Below are positions 990 to 12,782 of a stretch of 17,331 bases of DNA, one piece after another (the first letter of the stretch is position 1; every line of letters begins with the position of its first letter). The notes beneath the pieces are model-generated. The model worked only from the letters and a program-made list of their open reading frames with translations, did no database searches and was not told the origin of the DNA. The translations under genes and the position numbers were made by a program. The stretch covers positions 1-17,331 of the forward strand of contig CAJWGQ010000043.1 of NCBI GenBank assembly GCA_913041025.1, in the 5' to 3' direction. This stretch comes from an uncultured Gammaproteobacteria bacterium. GTDB taxonomy: Bacteria > Pseudomonadota > Gammaproteobacteria > Pseudomonadales > Azotimanducaceae_A.

Positions 990-2864
990 TTATGCGTCAG
1001 ATAGATCGCCGTAGGGGTTATCTATATCTAGGCTGACGCTCTCTCTGAACCCTGGTATGACTATCTCCTTAGGGGAAATAGATAGTTCCTCGCCATCCAC
1101 TACGCCCTCGCCAAATTGATAGATTGGCTTGGTGTCAAGGTCATCAGCTCTCAGGTTATAGTTTTCTGCGGCTTCCTGTATTTTTTCTGACCGTTTTTTG
1201 TGCGCGGTTAAATCCTTTGTGCCCCACCTTTTTTTAAGAAGCTCTTCAGTTTTTGACGGGGATACAAAAAATCCGGTGGCATTGTTTCCTCCAAATCCTT
1301 TTGAATTTACGAATCCAACTGGCATAGACGATGGATCGATTTCGATATCGTCGAAGGGTAACTGGAGGTGACTATCGTGTACGTCTTCCGCAATGTGGTC
1401 TATCGTTTTGATTCCAGGGAATAGTCCATCCTCCCATGTTCCTAGTATCGCGCTTAGTTGGTCTCCACCGGCTGGCGCCATTGAGTGGCCTACATAGCAC
1501 TTAACCGCTCCTGTTAACCAAGATTCGATGCCGAAAGTCTTGGCCAACTCATTGAGTATGTGAGATTCGGTCACTCGATTCTGGGGTGTGCCTGTCCCAT
1601 GAGCTTGCATAAAAGATCCGTTCTTAAGAACTTCCTCTCCTAATAAATTTTTGGCAGATGCCATGGCTTTTGCCACAGTTAGGTAGTTACCAATGCCGGG
1701 TCCCGGAATGGATTTTTTGTAGCCATCTGCGTGAACGAAAACATCAGGGACAGAACCAAGTATTCTCGCTCCAGATTCTAGAGCTAACTGATCATCCATT
1801 AGCACCAGCCAAATGGATGCTTCGGCGCAAGTGAATCCAGCATTCGAGGAAAATGGTCTGCAAGCTCGGCGATTGTCACAAACATCCGAGTCATCCAAGG
1901 CCTTTAGCTCTTCGTCTTCGGCTAGAGCACCCATGACACGGTAGCCTTCAATGACATGCGGAACGACTGGAGCTTCGCTGTTCCCCACAACAACAATTCG
2001 CTTGTTCCCAGAACGGATATCCTCGACAGCTCGTTTCACGTTATATAGAAAAGTTGCGCAAGCTCCTATGATGCCTGCTGTCTCTCCAACAGAGCCTAAG
2101 ACGTAAGCATTAACGAAATCCCCAGGCATTTCGGGGAGCCCCAAGGCGCAATGCTTGGATGTTGGCCTACGGCCGGCAAGTGGGTTTTGTAAAAGACCGC
2201 CATAGGCGTCATTGTCGAGCTGACCCATGGCGCTTCCCGAGTAAACTGCTATTTCGTCGGGTTTAACTAAATTTCTTATTTCTTCCACTTCAAAGCCAGT
2301 TGACTGGATAGCATCTGAAGCGCCGTAAACGGTCAACTGCAGTCCCCTGGGATGGCTTCTACTAGCATATAGCGCGGCCGGATCGAACCCAGAGGGAACT
2401 TGTCCTGCACTCGTAACTTTTGAAACCCTTTCATCGGGCAGCAGGACATTCAATGATTCTGCACAAACTATTTGGGTTTCCTTGTCATTAATCCTTGTAA
2501 GAGACCAATTGTTGGGGATGGTTTCGGGGAGCTGCTTCGTCGGTATTTTGAACGAAATTGATTTGGCGTCAGTATCTTTTAATGTTGCTGAGGATTGCCA
2601 ATGAACTGCATCAGGATCAAAAATCTCGATCTTTCTAATTAATGTGTGATCCTTTATGTGCTGTCTGACGGTCGAGTCCTGACTATTACCATCCAGTCTC
2701 ATTAGTTTGGCCAGACTAGCAAAAGTTGTATCCTGCTTTTGTTGACCAAGTTTATCTATAACAAGACGCCTATAAGCGTGATGAAAGGAAGCCCGACCCG
2801 CAGGGTTGACTCCTCCGAAGCCCACCATTACCGGGAGAGGGGAATTGCTACTGAGATTTTTCAA
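990..2864 (-). CDS. fabY: FabY-type beta-ketoacyl-ACP synthase
   Basis: A 624-residue condensing enzyme much longer than FabB or FabF (about 410 residues). Its opening, LPVMVGFGGVNPAGRASFHH (10-29), and its length match the FabY family. FabY of Pseudomonas aeruginosa is known to condense acetyl-CoA with malonyl-ACP to start fatty acid synthesis. The full Cys-His-His triad is visible: Cys269 in GACATF, His422 in AHGTGT and His460 in VKCYVGH with Lys455. The glycine motif GFGGNNA lies at 523-529. The start is TTG at 2864, overlapping the thiolase stop (TTGA), with GGAGAGGT at 2866-2873 as ribosome site inside the thiolase gene, so translation is probably coupled. Residues about 35-160 and the last 80 or so lie outside the core fold. 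With the divergent carboxylase it suggests a local chain-initiation module. The family call is firm; the exact primer substrate is inferred. Confidence 0.88.
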   Translation of the reverse strand: MKNLSSNSPLPVMVGFGGVNPAGRASFHHAYRRLVIDKLGQQKQDTTFASLAKLMRLDGNSQDSTVRQHIKDHTLIRKIEIFDPDAVHWQSSATLKDTDAKSISFKIPTKQLPETIPNNWSLTRINDKETQIVCAESLNVLLPDERVSKVTSAGQVPSGFDPAALYASRSHPRGLQLTVYGASDAIQSTGFEVEEIRNLVKPDEIAVYSGSAMGQLDNDAYGGLLQNPLAGRRPTSKHCALGLPEMPGDFVNAYVLGSVGETAGIIGACATFLYNVKRAVEDIRSGNKRIVVVGNSEAPVVPHVIEGYRVMGALAEDEELKALDDSDVCDNRRACRPFSSNAGFTCAEASIWLVLMDDQLALESGARILGSVPDVFVHADGYKKSIPGPGIGNYLTVAKAMASAKNLLGEEVLKNGSFMQAHGTGTPQNRVTESHILNELAKTFGIESWLTGAVKCYVGHSMAPAGGDQLSAILGTWEDGLFPGIKTIDHIAEDVHDSHLQLPFDDIEIDPSSMPVGFVNSKGFGGNNATGFFVSPSKTEELLKKRWGTKDLTAHKKRSEKIQEAAENYNLRADDLDTKPIYQFGEGVVDGEELSISPKEIVIPGFRESVSLDIDNPYGDLSDA

Positions 2865-4021
2865 GACCTCTCCAGTGCTATGGCTGTTGCTTCGCCGCCT
2901 CCAATACAGAGCGCCGCTACCCCCCTCTTCTTATCTAATCGCTTCATCGCGTGTGCGAGAGTGACTACCAGCCGACTGCCGGTGGATCCTATAGGATGGC
3001 CTTGAGCGCAGGCGCCACCATATAAATTTACCTTAGCTGGATCGAGGTTTAACTCTTGAATAGCAAGCATCGTTACCATCGCAAAGGCCTCGTTTATCTC
3101 GAAGAGTTCGACATCATCGATGTTCCAGTCAATTTTCGTCAGGAGGTTTTGTATCGCGCCCACTGGAGCAATGGTGAATTCAGAAGGATGAATTGAATGA
3201 GTACAATGCCCAACAATTCTTGCCAAGGGCTCCACCGTTAGATTTTGTTCATCAGAGGTGAGGACTAACGAGGAAGCCCCATCAGATATTGATGAGGAGT
3301 TAGCCGCTGTTATCGTGCCATCTGTTTTAAACGCCGGGCGCAGGGATGGTATTTTCTCGAGTTTTGCTCTGCCTGGTTGTTCGTCATTTGTTATTCGGTT
3401 CTCTCCGATTGAGATCGGTTCGATCTCAGATTCTAATAATTTATTTTCGATTGCGTCTCTTGCTTTGATTACCGAGTTTGTTGCGTAATCGTCCATATCT
3501 TTTCGGGTGAGCTGAAATTCATCCGCTGTATTTTGGGCGAAAGAGCCCATTGAACCGCCAGTCTCGGCATCCTCTAAACCATCTAAGAAAAGCGCGTCTT
3601 GCATTTGTTGATGACCCATTCGTAAACCTGATCTGGCCTTTTGTACCAAATAGGGGGCGTTGCTCATGCTTTCCATACCGCCTGCAATAATTGTGGTGCC
3701 ACTATCAGCTTTAATCAGATCGGTAGCCAACATAATGGCTTTCATGCCAGAGCCGCAAACCTTATTGACCGTCGTCGCGCCGCACGAGTCAGGTAATCCT
3801 GCATTTCGCATGGCCTGTCTCGCGGGAGCTTGTTTGAGTCCGGCGCTCACCACATTGCCCATAATTACTTCATCGATCTGTGAATCTTGAACTGAAGCGC
3901 GTTCTATAGAGGCTCTTATAGAATGTGCCCCGAGTTCTGGCGCGCTTAAAGAAGACAGTGCGCCCTGAAAACTCCCCACCGGTGTTCTTGCTGCACTAGC
4001 GATATATACCTGTTTACTCAA
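2861..4021 (-). CDS. Acetyl-CoA acyltransferase (thiolase)
   Basis: A 386-residue thiolase of normal length, joining two acetyl-CoA to acetoacetyl-CoA or cleaving 3-ketoacyl-CoA. All catalytic elements are present: nucleophile Cys89 in NKVCGSGMKA, the NEAFA motif at 310-314, His342 in CAQGHPIG, and the second cysteine Cys372 in LCIGGGEA. The N-terminus (VYIASAARTPVGSF) lines up with the family start and forces initiation at TTG 4021; the ribosome site GAGGTGA sits at 4025-4031. It lies 75 bases downstream of moaB and overlaps fabY by 4 bases. The short-chain biosynthetic type (PhaA/AtoB-like) fits the sequence best, but chain length and direction cannot be read from it. Next to fabY and the carboxylase it could manage the acetyl-CoA pool. 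A weak possible -10 box (TAGAAT on the minus strand, 4054-4059) lies in the gap to moaB. Confidence 0.92.
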   Translation of the reverse strand: MSKQVYIASAARTPVGSFQGALSSLSAPELGAHSIRASIERASVQDSQIDEVIMGNVVSAGLKQAPARQAMRNAGLPDSCGATTVNKVCGSGMKAIMLATDLIKADSGTTIIAGGMESMSNAPYLVQKARSGLRMGHQQMQDALFLDGLEDAETGGSMGSFAQNTADEFQLTRKDMDDYATNSVIKARDAIENKLLESEIEPISIGENRITNDEQPGRAKLEKIPSLRPAFKTDGTITAANSSSISDGASSLVLTSDEQNLTVEPLARIVGHCTHSIHPSEFTIAPVGAIQNLLTKIDWNIDDVELFEINEAFAMVTMLAIQELNLDPAKVNLYGGACAQGHPIGSTGSRLVVTLAHAMKRLDKKRGVAALCIGGGEATAIALERS

Positions 4022-4744: not shown

Positions 4745-7700
4745 TTGTTCATTCTAGAAACGTTGCAGAAACAGCTCATAGAAGGGGATCGGCTGTTCTT
4801 AATAGCCGAAAATTTAGCGAAAGATTTCTCTCTTTTCCCTCAACAGTCCAGGGAAACCGAACCCGTGCCCGGACTTCTGTCCGATTCGGTGATCAGAGGG
4901 GAAATAGAGTCACTATCTAAGATAGATATTGATTCCTATATACAACGTGTTCTTGCTAATGCAGAAGATCAATCGCGGATTGCCGCGCCGAAAATAATTC
5001 GTCAACTCGGACGTGTCTTGGAAGAGAAGAGTTTGGGTCCTTACTATCAAGCGATACTCGACTTAGCCTTTCCCGAAGGAGAGACCCGTAGAGTCGGTTT
5101 TATGGCTCAAGATAGATCTAAAGATCTAGGGGTCTGGATGCCAGAACATCATCTTGAGGCCGCTAAGTTTGTGGAGATCTGCTCTACACAGTCAATACCT
5201 ATTGTGACATTTATGGACACGCCAGGAGCAGATGCAAAGCAAGAAGCAAACGAACAAAACCAAGCGCACAGTATTTCTCGACTGATAGCGGAAATGAGTA
5301 ACGTGGATGTTCCCAATATCGGGGTTATATATGGTCTTGGATATTCAGGTGGGGCAATACCGCTAGCGTCAAGTAATACGATCCTGTCACTAAAAGACGC
5401 TGTGTTCAGTACTATTCAACCTGGGGCGTTAGCCAACATTGTCAGGCGATTGAATCTGTCTTGGCAAGAGTGTGCACAATACGTTGGTTTGTCTGCATAT
5501 GAATTGTATGGCCAGGGTAATATTGATGGAGTGGTAGATTATAGTCCTGCGGAGAAGCCGTCGACGCTAGACAATTTGCGTTTAGCAATTGTGGGATCTA
5601 TCTCAAATGTAGAAGGTAGGGTGAAAGAATTTGTCTCAGAGAATCCTTACATTCTTGACCATTATAGGCAAAGCCTGACTCGTTACCTCAACCCCTCTAA
5701 AAGTTTGCTCGCAATGCAAACAAGCGCTTCGCTTAAATTAACTAAGAATCCTACCGAGTACCTCAACGTGTTCGGCGTTGCCTATAGATATTTACGGTAT
5801 CTTCAAGTCCGGAAGAGGATAAAGGCGACTAGCACTTCGCAGTATGGTCGTCTAGCGGCCTTGGAGTTGCCTGCGGGAGATCTTAAAAGAAGAACAGATC
5901 TTGAACGCAGGCAAAAATTTCTAAGCTGGATTCAAGACCCGGACAAGGTGATTTACGATGACACCTTGTTAAAGGCCTGGCGGAATTACCAGGATAAAAA
6001 ACAAGCCCTAAATGAAGATCGCGGACGCATAAAGCTACTTATATTTGGAGAGCCCAGACAGAATTACGAAACGGCCAGATTTGAATTGATCTCCTGTTTG
6101 CTCGCTTTTTTGTATAACCGTTGGAAGAACGAAGCGAGCAGTAACCTTGAGGTACTGATTAATTATCTGAGAAATTTTGAAGATACAAAATTAATACTGA
6201 AGGTCAGTGATATTGAAAACCCTATTGAGGTAATTAAGAGCATCTGTGCTCAGGATGATCTGCGGGAAGAGCTGCGTGAGCGATTTTCTTATCAAGGCAG
6301 AGCACTTTTAAACCCTGAAGACCTCGAAGATCGAGGTGAAAATCAGTTGGCTAAACAGCTAGCTTCAGAACTTAATGTTGCTATAACGGGCTCGGTTTTT
6401 TCTCTTGTATCCAACGAATTGCAATCATCAATTCAGTCTAACAGGGCTCTTTTAAATGAGAGAGTTCCTCATCTAGTTGGATCGATTGATGAAGCAACTA
6501 AAGGTGAAGATGAGTCTGCAGTTAACGTTCTGGATGTTTTGTTAGATGAAGAGCTAAGAGAGGACATTGTTGCCGAATGTAGGAACCTCTTAATATTTGA
6601 TTCGGTTTATAACCAGGTCGTTGCGAATTTGGACGATATTGCCTCTGAAGCACAAAGTGCCCAGAGTTTATCGAAAGAGGCTCTGGCGCAGCTAATACGC
6701 TCGGCAGTAGCTGAATCAGAGGGTGATGATCAAGCACCTAATAATAGTTCGGCGTTGGCCCATTTTTTTGATTGGTATGAACGTTTACTAAAAATGCCGA
6801 AGGCTTCGTTATTCTTTACTGGGGTAGAGGAGTGGAAGAAGGCTAATTTTCCGCACATTGCAGACGCGCTATTCGTTGTGGTTACGCATATTTTTCAGAA
6901 TTTGGTCACCTCATATATCCAATCTGAGCGTGAAAACAAAGTTTATCAAGGCCGGATTGCCCCAAGATTGATTGGCCGCAGGAAAGATTTCTGGAATCGC
7001 TTGAACATTGCATATAGTGATCTATTGATGCAAAAACGACTAGTGGAAGAACGACGACGAAATCCGTTTTCCTACAAAGACATAATTGATAGATATTTTG
7101 ATAACTGGGAAGATCGTTATGAAGACCTCTTAAGTACGGACCCATGTTCTTTTCCAGGTTTTCGTCAATCGATCGAATCGGCGCTTAATAAGGAGGTGCC
7201 GCCTTGTGGGGTTGTAGCAGGGATAGCGGATTTTAAATCCTCGAAAAACGTGAAGGTCGGGGTTTTGTTATCTAACGTTTCCTTCCAAGCAGGCTCCTTC
7301 GATATGGCGAGTGCAGAGAAGTTCTGCAAGCTTTTGGTCGAATGTGCCGAGCAGCATATGCCCGTAGTGTGTTTTATATCTTCTGGCGGTATGCAGACGA
7401 AAGAGGGTGCCGGGGCACTGTTTTCAATGGCAGCCGTTAACGACCGTATTACTCGATTTGTTAGAGATCATGATCTTCCTGTTATCGTGTTTGGGTATGG
7501 TGATTGTACCGGTGGGGCCCAGGCGAGCTTTGTGACTCATCCTCTGGTACAAACTTATTATTTTTCTGGGACAAATATGCCTTTTGCTGGCCAAATTGTG
7601 GTCCCGTCAAACTTGCCTTTAAAGTCGACGTTATCAAATTATTTGTTTTTAAATAAAGGCAGTATGCAAGGACTTGTTGAGCATCCTTTCCAAGACGGAT

Positions 7701-9598
7701 TAGATGAGGTGATGCGACAAATAGACCCAACGATCCCGTTGCCTAGTGAAAGCGTGGAGACTGTTGTTGAAAAGGTGCTCTCGGGCGGAGTTGCAGAATT
7801 TAGGCCTGTGGTGGTTGCCCATCAAAATCGTTACACCGACGCAGAACTGATTCGGCCTACAAAAAGAGTCTTGATACACGGCAGAGGTTGTACCGCAGTC
7901 AAATTGATTACAGCAGCTCATAACATGGGACTAGAAATCGTATTAGTCCAAAGTGATCCTGACATGCAGTCGGTTGCGGTTGATTTGCTTAACGAAGAAG
8001 ACACGGTTGTATGCATTGGTGGTAATACGCCAGACGAAAGTTATTTGAATGCGTTGAGTGTGTTAAATGTTGCCGAAAATGAAGGAACTGATTCGCTTCA
8101 TCCAGGGATTGGTTTCCTCTCTGAAAATTCCTCTTTCGCAGAATTGATAAGAAGTCATGGGATAAATTTCATTGGGCCACCTGTTTCTAGCATGGAAACG
8201 ATGGGCAATAAATCCAATGCGATTAACACAGCAATGAGCTTGGCGGTGCCTGTTGTACCAGGTAGTCATGGAATATTGACCAGCGTAGAAAAAGCATCAG
8301 AGGTTGCCAATAGAATTGGTTATCCCGTACTTATAAAAGCTGTTCACGGAGGAGGGGGAAAGGGTATCCAGGTCGTCGAGGAAGAGGCGGAATTGTTTGA
8401 GCTTTTCCATAGAGTTGCGGCAGAAGCTAGAAGCGCCTTCGGTAATGGCGACGTATACATAGAAAAATATGTAACTTCTCTCAGGCACATAGAAGTTCAA
8501 TTGTTGAGGGATACTCAAGGATCGACAAAAGTTTTGGGAATAAGAGATTGCAGCGTCCAGAGAGATAAACAAAAGGTTCTTGAGGAATCTGGGTCCACGA
8601 TGCTGCCCGCTCATCTAGAGGAGTCGGTTATACAATCGACCCGAAAAATTGCGGATGAGGTCGGTTATATAGGGGCTGGCACGGTCGAATTTATCTACGA
8701 TTTGAAATCAGAAGCGATTTATTTTATGGAGATGAACACTCGTCTTCAGGTCGAGCATCCGGTCACCGAGTTAGTTTCTGGTGTGGAAATTGTTGGCGAA
8801 CAGTTTCGTATAGCAAGCGGGCAATCAATAGCTGATTTGCAAGAAAAACAGAAAGGATATGCTATAGAGGTCAGAGTAACGGCGGAATTAATAGAAAAAG
8901 ATTCTGAAGGAAGTTTGAATTTTAAACCACAACCGGGCCGGATTTCTGATTGCAATTTTCCTGATCAAAAAAACATACAAGTCATCTCCACCGCCGGAGC
9001 GGGGAAGGAAGTTTCACCCTATTACGACAGTTTATTGGCTCAAGTGATAGTCCATTCGGATACTCGAGAAAATGCGATCGTTGAACTCATCGATTATCTA
9101 GAAAGAGTTAGATTGACTGGGATAAGCACGAATATTCCTCTGTTGAAATTGGTTTTAAAGGACAAGGTTTTTAGAGACGGGAATTATGATACGGGCTATT
9201 TGTTAGAGCTGCTCGAACGTACTGATGTGGAGGAGCTAATCTCTGAGACGGTAGATGCTGCCGGCGCGTCTGAAAGCGCTATTGGTAGCGAGAACATAGT
9301 GATCGAAGGAACGAACGAACTTAAAGTGCTATCGCCTTCTAGCGCAATTTTCTATAGTACTCCCTCTCCATCGGAACCAGACTATATAAATGTGGGGGAT
9401 CGGATAGAGCTACAAACTACTTTATGCCAGCTCGAGGCGATGAAGATATTCTCGCCCTTGAAACTGGGTGATTTTAACCAAGGTAGTCAGCTATATGATC
9501 CTTCTGTAGAGTATGAAGTAACTCGCATTAATATTAGATCCGGTCAGCAAGTTAATCCGGGAGATTTACTCTTTGTTATTCGTCCTATTGAGCAGTAA
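4745..9598 (+). CDS. Single-chain biotin-dependent acyl-CoA carboxylase (CT-alpha / CT-beta / BC / BCCP fusion)
   Basis: One 1617-residue chain holding every part of an acyl-CoA carboxylase. Residues about 90-275 resemble AccA, with TFMDTPGADA near 153 and GYSGGA near 200. Residues about 280-815 are charged, mostly helical and unrecognised. Residues about 815-985 resemble AccD, with ISSGGMQTKEGAG near 880 and GDCTGGAQASF near 920, but no CxxC zinc finger is visible. Biotin carboxylase spans about 1040-1485: Lys1198 and loop GGGGKG (1202-1207), EMNTRLQVEHP (1329-1339), and the EVRVTAE arginine. The biotinyl domain ends the chain with EAMKI, Lys1567 being the predicted biotin site. It would use ATP and bicarbonate to make malonyl-CoA or another 2-carboxyacyl-CoA in the cytoplasm; the acyl substrate is unknown. 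TTG 4745 is the first possible start after an in-frame stop at 4733 and is uncertain, since no good ribosome site is seen. I recall multidomain acetyl-CoA carboxylases annotated in some marine gammaproteobacteria, so this may belong to a known but poorly characterised family. Confidence 0.85.
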   Translation: MFILETLQKQLIEGDRLFLIAENLAKDFSLFPQQSRETEPVPGLLSDSVIRGEIESLSKIDIDSYIQRVLANAEDQSRIAAPKIIRQLGRVLEEKSLGPYYQAILDLAFPEGETRRVGFMAQDRSKDLGVWMPEHHLEAAKFVEICSTQSIPIVTFMDTPGADAKQEANEQNQAHSISRLIAEMSNVDVPNIGVIYGLGYSGGAIPLASSNTILSLKDAVFSTIQPGALANIVRRLNLSWQECAQYVGLSAYELYGQGNIDGVVDYSPAEKPSTLDNLRLAIVGSISNVEGRVKEFVSENPYILDHYRQSLTRYLNPSKSLLAMQTSASLKLTKNPTEYLNVFGVAYRYLRYLQVRKRIKATSTSQYGRLAALELPAGDLKRRTDLERRQKFLSWIQDPDKVIYDDTLLKAWRNYQDKKQALNEDRGRIKLLIFGEPRQNYETARFELISCLLAFLYNRWKNEASSNLEVLINYLRNFEDTKLILKVSDIENPIEVIKSICAQDDLREELRERFSYQGRALLNPEDLEDRGENQLAKQLASELNVAITGSVFSLVSNELQSSIQSNRALLNERVPHLVGSIDEATKGEDESAVNVLDVLLDEELREDIVAECRNLLIFDSVYNQVVANLDDIASEAQSAQSLSKEALAQLIRSAVAESEGDDQAPNNSSALAHFFDWYERLLKMPKASLFFTGVEEWKKANFPHIADALFVVVTHIFQNLVTSYIQSERENKVYQGRIAPRLIGRRKDFWNRLNIAYSDLLMQKRLVEERRRNPFSYKDIIDRYFDNWEDRYEDLLSTDPCSFPGFRQSIESALNKEVPPCGVVAGIADFKSSKNVKVGVLLSNVSFQAGSFDMASAEKFCKLLVECAEQHMPVVCFISSGGMQTKEGAGALFSMAAVNDRITRFVRDHDLPVIVFGYGDCTGGAQASFVTHPLVQTYYFSGTNMPFAGQIVVPSNLPLKSTLSNYLFLNKGSMQGLVEHPFQDGLDEVMRQIDPTIPLPSESVETVVEKVLSGGVAEFRPVVVAHQNRYTDAELIRPTKRVLIHGRGCTAVKLITAAHNMGLEIVLVQSDPDMQSVAVDLLNEEDTVVCIGGNTPDESYLNALSVLNVAENEGTDSLHPGIGFLSENSSFAELIRSHGINFIGPPVSSMETMGNKSNAINTAMSLAVPVVPGSHGILTSVEKASEVANRIGYPVLIKAVHGGGGKGIQVVEEEAELFELFHRVAAEARSAFGNGDVYIEKYVTSLRHIEVQLLRDTQGSTKVLGIRDCSVQRDKQKVLEESGSTMLPAHLEESVIQSTRKIADEVGYIGAGTVEFIYDLKSEAIYFMEMNTRLQVEHPVTELVSGVEIVGEQFRIASGQSIADLQEKQKGYAIEVRVTAELIEKDSEGSLNFKPQPGRISDCNFPDQKNIQVISTAGAGKEVSPYYDSLLAQVIVHSDTRENAIVELIDYLERVRLTGISTNIPLLKLVLKDKVFRDGNYDTGYLLELLERTDVEELISETVDAAGASESAIGSENIVIEGTNELKVLSPSSAIFYSTPSPSEPDYINVGDRIELQTTLCQLEAMKIFSPLKLGDFNQGSQLYDPSVEYEVTRINIRSGQQVNPGDLLFVIRPIEQ

Positions 9599-9652: not shown

Positions 9653-10114
9653 ATGAAATCTTTCAGAGCATTCGCAGTCAGAGATTCGGTGATTTTTCTA
9701 GTCACGCTGCTATTTTGGCAGAACCTAAGCGATACCTATCTTTTTCATAGCATAGCTGGGCTACTAGCTGGGCTCTGCGCTTTTTTGTTCCACGAGTGGG
9801 GTCATTTGTTGGGCGCTTATCTTTCGAAAGCAGTGGTGCACCCGGCGCCCTCGCTATTTTCTCCACTGTTGTTCGACTTGGATTCTCAGAAAAATACTAG
9901 ACGACAATTTCTGTATGTAAGTGGCACAGGATTCATAGCGACGAGTCTGTTTTTGTTTGTTTTTTGCTCTGTGTTGCCTTTGAACTTGTTTGCTGGCAAG
10001 TTGGCAATCTATATAGGGTTGGCGTTGGCTGCACTCACAGTTTTTATCGAGTTTCCAATTGCGTGGATCGTTTATAGAAGACATAAAATCCCGAGGGTTG
10101 AGATCTTTAGGTAA
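9653..10114 (+). CDS. Small membrane protein with HEWGH metalloprotease-like motif
   Basis: A 153-residue hydrophobic protein with about four membrane segments (roughly 13-30, 33-56, 87-108 and 113-141). Segment two ends in FHEWGHLLGAYL, an HExxH zinc motif at 47-51 inside the membrane, as in M50/site-2 proteases. A GTGF stretch begins segment three. The third M50 element, an NxxPxxDG-like motif giving the last zinc ligand, is not seen; segment four has only FIEFP. It could be a minimal or degenerate M50-like protease, or a membrane protein binding metal for another reason. ATG at 9653 directly abuts TAGAGG, an unusually short spacing, so the start is not fully certain. It follows the carboxylase by 54 bases on the same strand, possibly cotranscribed, and converges on the TauE gene with a 12-base gap. 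Function unknown. Confidence 0.65.
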   Translation: MKSFRAFAVRDSVIFLVTLLFWQNLSDTYLFHSIAGLLAGLCAFLFHEWGHLLGAYLSKAVVHPAPSLFSPLLFDLDSQKNTRRQFLYVSGTGFIATSLFLFVFCSVLPLNLFAGKLAIYIGLALAALTVFIEFPIAWIVYRRHKIPRVEIFR

Positions 10115-10929: not shown

Positions 10930-11787
10930 ATGCTTGAGAACTTAGAGACGCTGATCACATTGTCGAAAGAAGGAACCATGGTTGAAGCGAGTACAACGTT
11001 GAATATTTCGCAATCTGCGGTGAGTAAGCGAATTGCCGCATTAGAGACTTATTATGATCGAGAACTAATACAGAGGCATGGGCGAAGGGTCGTTTTGACT
11101 CATCATGGGACTCGTTTGATAGAGCGAGTGACTCCTTTGTTGTCAGAGTTAAGGAGTGTTTTTTTAGAAGACAATACACTTAGGAGAGGCAAACTGATTC
11201 TCGGTGTGTCAGAAGCTATATTAACCAGTTGGGGAGCGGATTTATTTGCAAAGGTCAGGGAGAGACTTCCTAGTATTGAGCTTGAATTTCATGCTCAGCG
11301 ATCGCCGGTGGTTTTGGATCGTCTACGATCCGGCGAGTATATGGTGGGGATTTGCACCGGTAGTTCGGACTCTGATCTTGATTTGGTCAGTGAACTAATA
11401 ATGGAAGAGCAAATGGTGATTATCCCGTCCGCATTAAAGAAGTTTAAATATCAGGTGGGAGATTCGCTTGATGTCATCACCATCGAATCGCGCAGTGGCG
11501 CTTGGGCTTCGATTGAAGAGTCCATGCAGAATCTGAATTTGAAGAGAGTGTCCTCTTTAGAATCTTTTTTCTCTGTTGCTCAGATGGCGATTGCTGGTTT
11601 TGGGCATGGTCTCGTCCCGGTTGGAGTCGCAAGAACTTTGGCAGTCCCAGATAAGAGACTGTTTAAGTTGAGCGGTTCAAGGCTGACGCGACCGGTTAGA
11701 TTTGTGGCTAGAAAATCAATTTTTTCCCAGGAATTAGTGAAAAGTTTCTATGCGGAGGTCACTTCGATCGCTTCGTCACTGGAATGA
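10930..11787 (+). CDS. LysR-family transcriptional regulator
   Basis: A 285-residue LysR-type regulator. The N-terminal winged helix-turn-helix is clear: MVEASTTLNISQSAVSKRIA (17-36), followed by LETYYDRELIQRHGRRVVLT with the usual wing. Residues about 90-285 form the periplasmic-binding-protein-like effector domain, including the conserved GHGLVPVG turn near 224-231. ATG 10930 fits the family start. It diverges from the TauE/SafE exporter with two bases between start codons, so any operator must lie inside one or both coding regions. Autorepression and control of the exporter are the usual LysR pattern and are inferred here. The effector is unknown. Its last 40 bases overlap the 3' end of hemH on the other strand. 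Confidence 0.9.
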   Translation: MLENLETLITLSKEGTMVEASTTLNISQSAVSKRIAALETYYDRELIQRHGRRVVLTHHGTRLIERVTPLLSELRSVFLEDNTLRRGKLILGVSEAILTSWGADLFAKVRERLPSIELEFHAQRSPVVLDRLRSGEYMVGICTGSSDSDLDLVSELIMEEQMVIIPSALKKFKYQVGDSLDVITIESRSGAWASIEESMQNLNLKRVSSLESFFSVAQMAIAGFGHGLVPVGVARTLAVPDKRLFKLSGSRLTRPVRFVARKSIFSQELVKSFYAEVTSIASSLE

Positions 11788-12782
11788 CCAATCAGTAATT
11801 CGCCCAGGCCGTCTATCCAATCAGCTCGGTCGTTCAAACAGGGTACTAAGGTTAAATTATGACCGCCGGCCTTGATGAAAGTTTCTTGTCCGCGATCACC
11901 GATTTCTTCCAAGGTTTCCAAGTTATCAGCGACGAAACTAGGACAAGCCACGACTAATTGCTTTACTCCGTTTTTAGCTAAAGAAATCAATGTTTTCTCT
12001 GTAGAAGGCGTAAGCCAAGGGACTGGACCGAGCTTTGATTGAAAGCTCGTACTGTACTTCGTTTTTGAAATATTCAGAGCAAGGGAAATAAGGTCAGAGG
12101 TTTTAATACACTGATGGCGATAGCAGTTGCCGTTTGTGCTGGTCCCTAGAAGACAACAATCTGGACTAGATAGACAGTGCTTGCCGGAAGGGTCCGAGTT
12201 TTTTATCTGGCTTTCTGGAAGGCTATGGTAACTAAAAAGCAGGTGGTCGAACTGTTCAGGTAAATTCTCAGCGATTACTTTTGCTGACGACTTAACGAAT
12301 GCCTCGTTTGAATAGAAAGGCGGAATTACCGACAGATTTGCTTTTTCTTGATTTTCTTCGACGACCTTGTTGATTGTTGTGGTGACGGTTGCATCGCAGA
12401 ACTGAGGATAAAGTGGTAGGACCTTGATATTTTGGACATTTCGTCTTTCGAAGGAAGATAGGGCTTCTGAAATGCTTGGACGACCATAACGCATTGCAAC
12501 TTCTACTTTAATACCAAATTGTTCTTCCAGTTTTCTACCTAAGTTTTGGCTAAAGAATAAAAGAGGAGAACCGGTATCCATCCATATTTTTTTGTAGGCC
12601 TCGGAAGTTGATTTGGGACGAAAGGGTAAAATGAAACCACTTACGATCATTTTGCGAGCAAGCCAGGGAAGGTTAATCACATAAGGATCCATTAAAAATT
12701 CACCCAGATACCGTCTTACATCCTTGGTCGAATATGAATCTGGGCTCCCCAGGTTAATAAGTAAAAAGCCTGTTTTTTCCAA
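11748..12782 (-). CDS. hemH: Ferrochelatase with cysteine-rich insert
   Basis: A 344-residue ferrochelatase, which inserts Fe(II) into protoporphyrin IX in the last step of protoheme synthesis. It starts with the family signature TGFLLINLGSPDS. The metal-binding histidine is His186 in SYHSLPE, and Glu289 sits in the conserved NLETLEEIGD. PLYPQF (123-128) is also typical. Residues 203-225 carry five cysteines (203, 209, 210, 220, 225) just after the active-site loop. This pattern resembles ferrochelatases of other phyla that may bind a [2Fe-2S] cluster; E. coli HemH lacks it. The start is TTG at 12782, forced because no ATG lies upstream in frame. A good sigma-70-like promoter (12813-12841) precedes it. 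The gene diverges from hisH and overlaps the LysR gene by 40 bases at its 3' end. Confidence 0.93.
   Translation of the reverse strand: MEKTGFLLINLGSPDSYSTKDVRRYLGEFLMDPYVINLPWLARKMIVSGFILPFRPKSTSEAYKKIWMDTGSPLLFFSQNLGRKLEEQFGIKVEVAMRYGRPSISEALSSFERRNVQNIKVLPLYPQFCDATVTTTINKVVEENQEKANLSVIPPFYSNEAFVKSSAKVIAENLPEQFDHLLFSYHSLPESQIKNSDPSGKHCLSSPDCCLLGTSTNGNCYRHQCIKTSDLISLALNISKTKYSTSFQSKLGPVPWLTPSTEKTLISLAKNGVKQLVVACPSFVADNLETLEEIGDRGQETFIKAGGHNLTLVPCLNDRADWIDGLGELLIGHSSDEAIEVTSA

Follow-up and report, generated by a model that had tools for sequence, protein, structure and literature searches.

The window analyzed here is a stretch of 17,331 nucleotides from an uncultured Gammaproteobacteria bacterium, probably a marine one (assembly GCA_913041025.1, contig CAJWGQ010000043.1), and its central feature is a reading frame at 4745..9598 (+ strand), open over 1617 codons, that encodes in series an AccA-like part, a helical spacer, an AccD-like part, a biotin carboxylase (BC) and a biotinyl domain. 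The frame itself, domain searches and a match to structures in the PDB mark it as an accS-type gene, predicted to encode a single-chain acetyl-CoA carboxylase (ACC) with the layout AccA-spacer-AccD-BC-BCCP (biotin carboxyl carrier protein). Judged by its sequence, the gene is very probably the orthologue of Shewanella accS, and its product would be a complete one-chain ACC making malonyl-CoA for fatty acid synthesis. Translation more likely begins at TTG 4763 (a predicted 1611 codons), because the first residue of the homologue P0002 aligns with codon 7.

Domain searches placed an ACCA match at residues 125-265 (the CT-alpha, or first carboxyltransferase, match; 5117..5539), an accD match at 786-952 and, from 1039 to 1486, the three domains of a biotin carboxylase; biotinyl matches reach 1612. 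With the alignments, these searches delimit a carboxyltransferase (CT)-beta, AccD-like part at residues 786-1000 (7100..7744), which includes G881-G882, an AccC-like BC domain at 1040-1490 (7862..9214) and an AccB-like biotinyl domain at 1528-1614 (9326..9586), all on the + strand; the codon of the predicted biotin-accepting lysine, K1567 in the motif EAMKI, lies at 9443..9445 (+). The accD (a weak 44 bits), BCCP and Pfam biotinyl matches do not reach the curated thresholds for those families, but the assignments are backed because the whole chain matches PDB 9kkm/9w4a. The two CT halves are separated by a mostly helical spacer (residues 301-785; 5645..7099, +), recognized from the predicted model and from Pfam and PDB searches, in which no Pfam family exceeded its cut-off (best E 0.083) and 9kkm was the sole PDB sequence match below E 0.4 (query residues 266-785). 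In a fold search whose query was the whole CT model, not the spacer alone, residues ~55-369 matched ACC carboxyltransferase chains, and the alignment to 9kkm ran to model residue 1017. An earlier note on this DNA had proposed the order AccA-like, AccD-like, BC, biotinyl in one 1617-codon frame, with the CT halves reversed and far apart. Domain searches and the whole-chain match bear this out: the AccD-like half follows the AccA-like half after ~520 residues, and the CT model matches ACC carboxyltransferase folds.

The whole-chain match (1,686 bits) is to 'Acetyl-CoA carboxylase multifunctional enzyme AccADCB', and the title of the PDB entry describes a holoenzyme dimer of Shewanella oneidensis; the main gap in the match is an insert of ~100 residues in the window chain (gap at 480-588). 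From the organism, the name and the equal length (1517) we infer that 9kkm is SO_0840. According to published accounts, SO_0840 is S. oneidensis accS, with a product of 1517 amino acids (PMC4793157, PMC10470608, PMC11602165). The protein was one of two biotinylated proteins in a control strain (PMC10470608), and the species also has a further AccB homologue, SO_0511 (PMC4793157). The domain order of AccS is described as unlike that of eukaryotic ACC, and the LysR protein AccR activates accS expression; loss of AccR slowed growth, and either accS or the E. coli set accA, accD and accBC restored it (PMC11602165). Acetyl-CoA as the substrate of S. oneidensis AccS is supported by genetics. No paper describing the structure 9kkm was found in a literature search that mostly lacked subscription papers; in PMC9803151, the one paper found to contain the string 'accADCB', it is a list of gene names, and passages of a paper on butuanimides hold nothing on a fused ACC.

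Conservation of the active sites was assessed by alignment to the acc genes of E. coli K-12, the choice of BC and CT residues that count as catalytic being our assumption. In the BC domain, 17 of 19 tested positions are identical to E. coli AccC, among them K116, K159, H209, K238, E276, E288, N290, R292, E296 and R338 (E. coli numbering). Both CT Gly-Gly pairs match as well, G206-G207 of E. coli AccA aligning with G202-G203 (the glycine two residues earlier is replaced by Y200) and G204-G205 of AccD with G923-G924, while AccB K122 aligns with K1567. The AccD zinc-finger cysteines of E. coli (C27, C30, C46, C49) align to gaps in the window chain. A set of 132 sequences, made up of 121 proteins plus 11 loci and including some near-copies, shows the ten named BC residues, the CT Gly-Gly pairs and the lysine of the biotinyl domain conserved in 131 or 132; the residue following the lysine varies among I, M, L and V.

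The fused chain is not confined to this contig, and the homologues of the same order that the earlier note had suggested seeking were found. The locus L001 encodes a chain of the same order and length, 92% identical over residues 1-1617. A protein search scored 7,993 candidates, of which 1,408 had E up to 1e-3; among the 120 of these matches that were listed, identities are 63-92%, lengths 1564-1671 and the core Pfam set is the same throughout, and matches past those 120 may include other carboxylases. A probe made from the spacer (residues 301-832) hit 5 of 274 genomes from the class of a Shewanella; among 194 genomes in the order to which the 92% relative belongs, it hit 25. Each count includes the centre genome itself.

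Thirty-eight carrier genomes (10 + 28), picked for having the fused chain and distinct from the window's own genome and that of L002, were searched for stand-alone accA and accD. At an unstated genome completeness, accA passed its family cut-off in four and accD in the same four (1/10 + 3/28), leaving 34 of 38 with neither gene reaching the cut-off. As a control, 259 of the 274 genomes from the class gave an accA match above the cut-off. The best sub-cut-off matches in the accA searches are the fused chains themselves (60.7-84.7 bits); in searches with accD, the fused chains are equalled or outscored by some frames of 515-597 amino acids (one in G003 at 66.7 bits, others in G153 and G266). Frames of ~515-600 amino acids with weak accA/accD matches are, to judge by length, probably PccB-type CTs. 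The four carriers with ordinary accA and accD are G177, G289, G329 and G007; in G289 and G329 the spacer of the fused chain is only 26-27% identical to that of the window, and these chains perhaps form a second subfamily with another role. Four Shewanella genomes (G004, G006, G009, G010) have stand-alone accB and accC above the cut-off and accA and accD below it.

We infer the activity, substrate, biotinylation and dimeric state of the window protein from its relationship to AccS. The BC domain would use ATP and bicarbonate to carboxylate biotin on K1567, and the biotinyl domain would then ferry carboxybiotin to a CT site to which both the AccA-like and the AccD-like fold contribute; transfer of the carboxyl group to acetyl-CoA there would give malonyl-CoA. 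Two chains likely dimerize, as in the S. oneidensis structure, and the long helical spacer would let CT folds that are distant in sequence meet in the dimer.

Several observations weigh against this assignment. Identity in the CT part is just 45-49% to seven chains from Shewanella, Parashewanella, Psychromonas and Chromatiales, and no LysR gene lies divergent to the window gene as accR does in Shewanella, the divergent gene here being moaB. E. coli BC residues H236 and I287 are replaced by K1275 and M1328. Four carriers hold ordinary accA and accD besides the fused chain. The cut-offs behind these counts are strict, accA passing in only 7 and accD in only 6 of 14 widely spread control genomes, such that divergent separate subunits could escape them. 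Stand-alone accB also passes in 8 and accC in 5 of 10 carriers, a redundancy for which an AccS-like role offers no account. Given the carriers with both kinds of CT gene, the fused chain may not always be the fatty acid enzyme, and the many carriers with frames of ~515-600 amino acids, probably PccB-type CTs, could likewise fit a single-chain carboxylase whose substrate is propionyl-CoA or a longer acyl-CoA, other enzymes then serving fatty acid synthesis. We consider such a specificity improbable: the first CT half scores 115.8 bits with the AccA_sub model and 40.5 bits with the mmdA model (all below cut-off), S. oneidensis has the orthologue as its ACC, and no recognized ACC carboxyltransferase would remain in 34 of 38 carriers. 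The unusual holoenzyme and unknown substrate proposed in the earlier note do not stand, as the exact order is already well characterized in S. oneidensis AccS/AccADCB; an unknown substrate is not the favoured reading, given an orthologue that is an ACC and the lack of separate accA and accD above cut-off in most carriers.

Two further explanations can be given almost no weight. The window sequence rests on a single assembly, and an assembly or frame artefact might in principle have fused separate acc genes, but independent records refute this, namely L001, the 120 listed of 1,408 matches and a solved structure. The substitutions at K1275 and M1328, with the weak accD match, could also be taken as signs of a degenerate or regulatory ACC remnant that is no longer catalytic; that is hardly credible for a chain that retains the ten BC residues taken as catalytic, the Gly-Gly pairs of the CT halves and the lysine of the biotinyl domain, and at position 1275, of the 132 sequences, 124 have K and eight have N. 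An AccS-type ACC remains the preferred reading of the gene.

The window chain represents a long form of AccS. Its insert of ~100 residues, around residues 481-585 (6185..6499, +; located by alignment, the predicted model and the gap against 9kkm), is helical in the predicted model; it is present in the close homologues and missing from seven loci of Shewanella, Parashewanella, Psychromonas and Chromatiales. Counted in a script alignment, the segment corresponding to residues 472-595 has 24 residues in six of these seven loci and 29 in the seventh, the one from Chromatiales; it has 119-136 at the other listed lengths (the 12 commonest, which account for 128 of the 132 sequences), and L003 has 141. 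A tree of 29 rows sets long and short forms apart with weak support (72/38) and a long-branch warning, and was used for no conclusion.

Upstream of the accS-type gene and divergent from it lie moaB, a thiolase of the acetyl-CoA C-acyltransferase family (2861..4021, - strand; a neighbour and not part of the enzyme) and a 624-residue beta-ketoacyl synthase (990..2864, -), residues 6-621 of which match PDB 4cw4 (E 1.8e-187). The ketosynthase and thiolase genes overlap by 4 bases and probably form one operon. We take this ketosynthase class to be FabY, which is also our assumption for 4cw4 itself; FabY initiates fatty acid synthesis in Pseudomonas aeruginosa. The three neighbours are kept in L001, L002 (where the ketosynthase is cut by the locus end) and L004, and in part in L003, which has no moaB match; L005-L011 gave no match to any of the neighbouring genes of the window. 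The ketosynthase is present in 24 of 38 carriers; going by coordinates, it sits within ~6 kb of the fused gene in nine, all with fused frames of 1617-1665 amino acids. This linkage is in keeping with a fatty acid role, though it may reflect no more than shared ancestry. One could go further and suppose that, in relatives of this organism, long-form AccS, the FabY-class ketosynthase and the thiolase make up a locus dedicated to fatty acid initiation; the insert would dock to, or be regulated by, a partner absent in Shewanella, coupling malonyl-CoA supply to FabY priming. The ketosynthase/thiolase pair beside the gene in nine carriers, all long forms, speaks for this idea; long forms in G303, G318, G384, G412 and G458, where the ketosynthase lies elsewhere, and in G016 and G355, where it has no match, speak against it, and we regard it as unlikely.

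Downstream, a frame of 153 residues (9653-10114, +) begins 54 bases after accS and has no Pfam or NCBIfam match; among L001-L011 it was found only in L001, as 37 residues up to the contig end. Farther downstream lies a LysR-family regulator in the same direction (10930..11787, +), which may regulate accS; it gave no solved-structure match at E 1e-10. Its placement resembles a second LysR arrangement mentioned in PMC11602165. The regulator is kept in L002, L003 and L004 (58-75% identity), and its frame overlaps that of hemH (11748-12782, -) tail to tail by 40 bases.

The enzyme is of a known kind, its order, structure and assigned function being already known from AccS, and its peculiarities are best seen beside other carboxylases. 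With the E. coli-type four-subunit ACC (AccA, AccB, AccC, AccD) it shares the same four units, a BC 40% identical to AccC and, ahead of the biotinyl site, the motif FYSTPSP (FYRTPSP in E. coli AccB); in E. coli, however, the units are separate subunits, and the four-cysteine N-terminal zinc finger of AccD is without counterpart in the window chain. Eukaryotic ACC also carries BC, BCCP and CT on one polypeptide, with BC first and CT last, an order that domain searches do not find here. The CT folds of PccB/AccD5-type fused enzymes and of a single-chain long-chain acyl-CoA carboxylase (PDB 4rcn) align with the window model, yet in those enzymes the AccD-like half comes first and the AccA-like half directly adjoins it, whereas here the AccA-like half leads and the AccD-like half follows ~520 residues later, beyond a long spacer. 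The contrast that the earlier note drew with PccB-type CTs and eukaryotic ACC was correct. Fused ACCs of this kind show that the four bacterial units can function when joined in a single chain, and in an order used by neither group; this point, which bears on the evolution and assembly of ACC, had already been made with S. oneidensis AccS. With that enzyme the window chain has in common the order A-spacer-D-C-B, the single chain and homology over the whole length, spacer included; it differs in being ~100 residues longer and in its gene neighbours. What the window contributes is a longer AccS with a ketosynthase gene close by, which is useful for comparison but is not a new kind of carboxylase.
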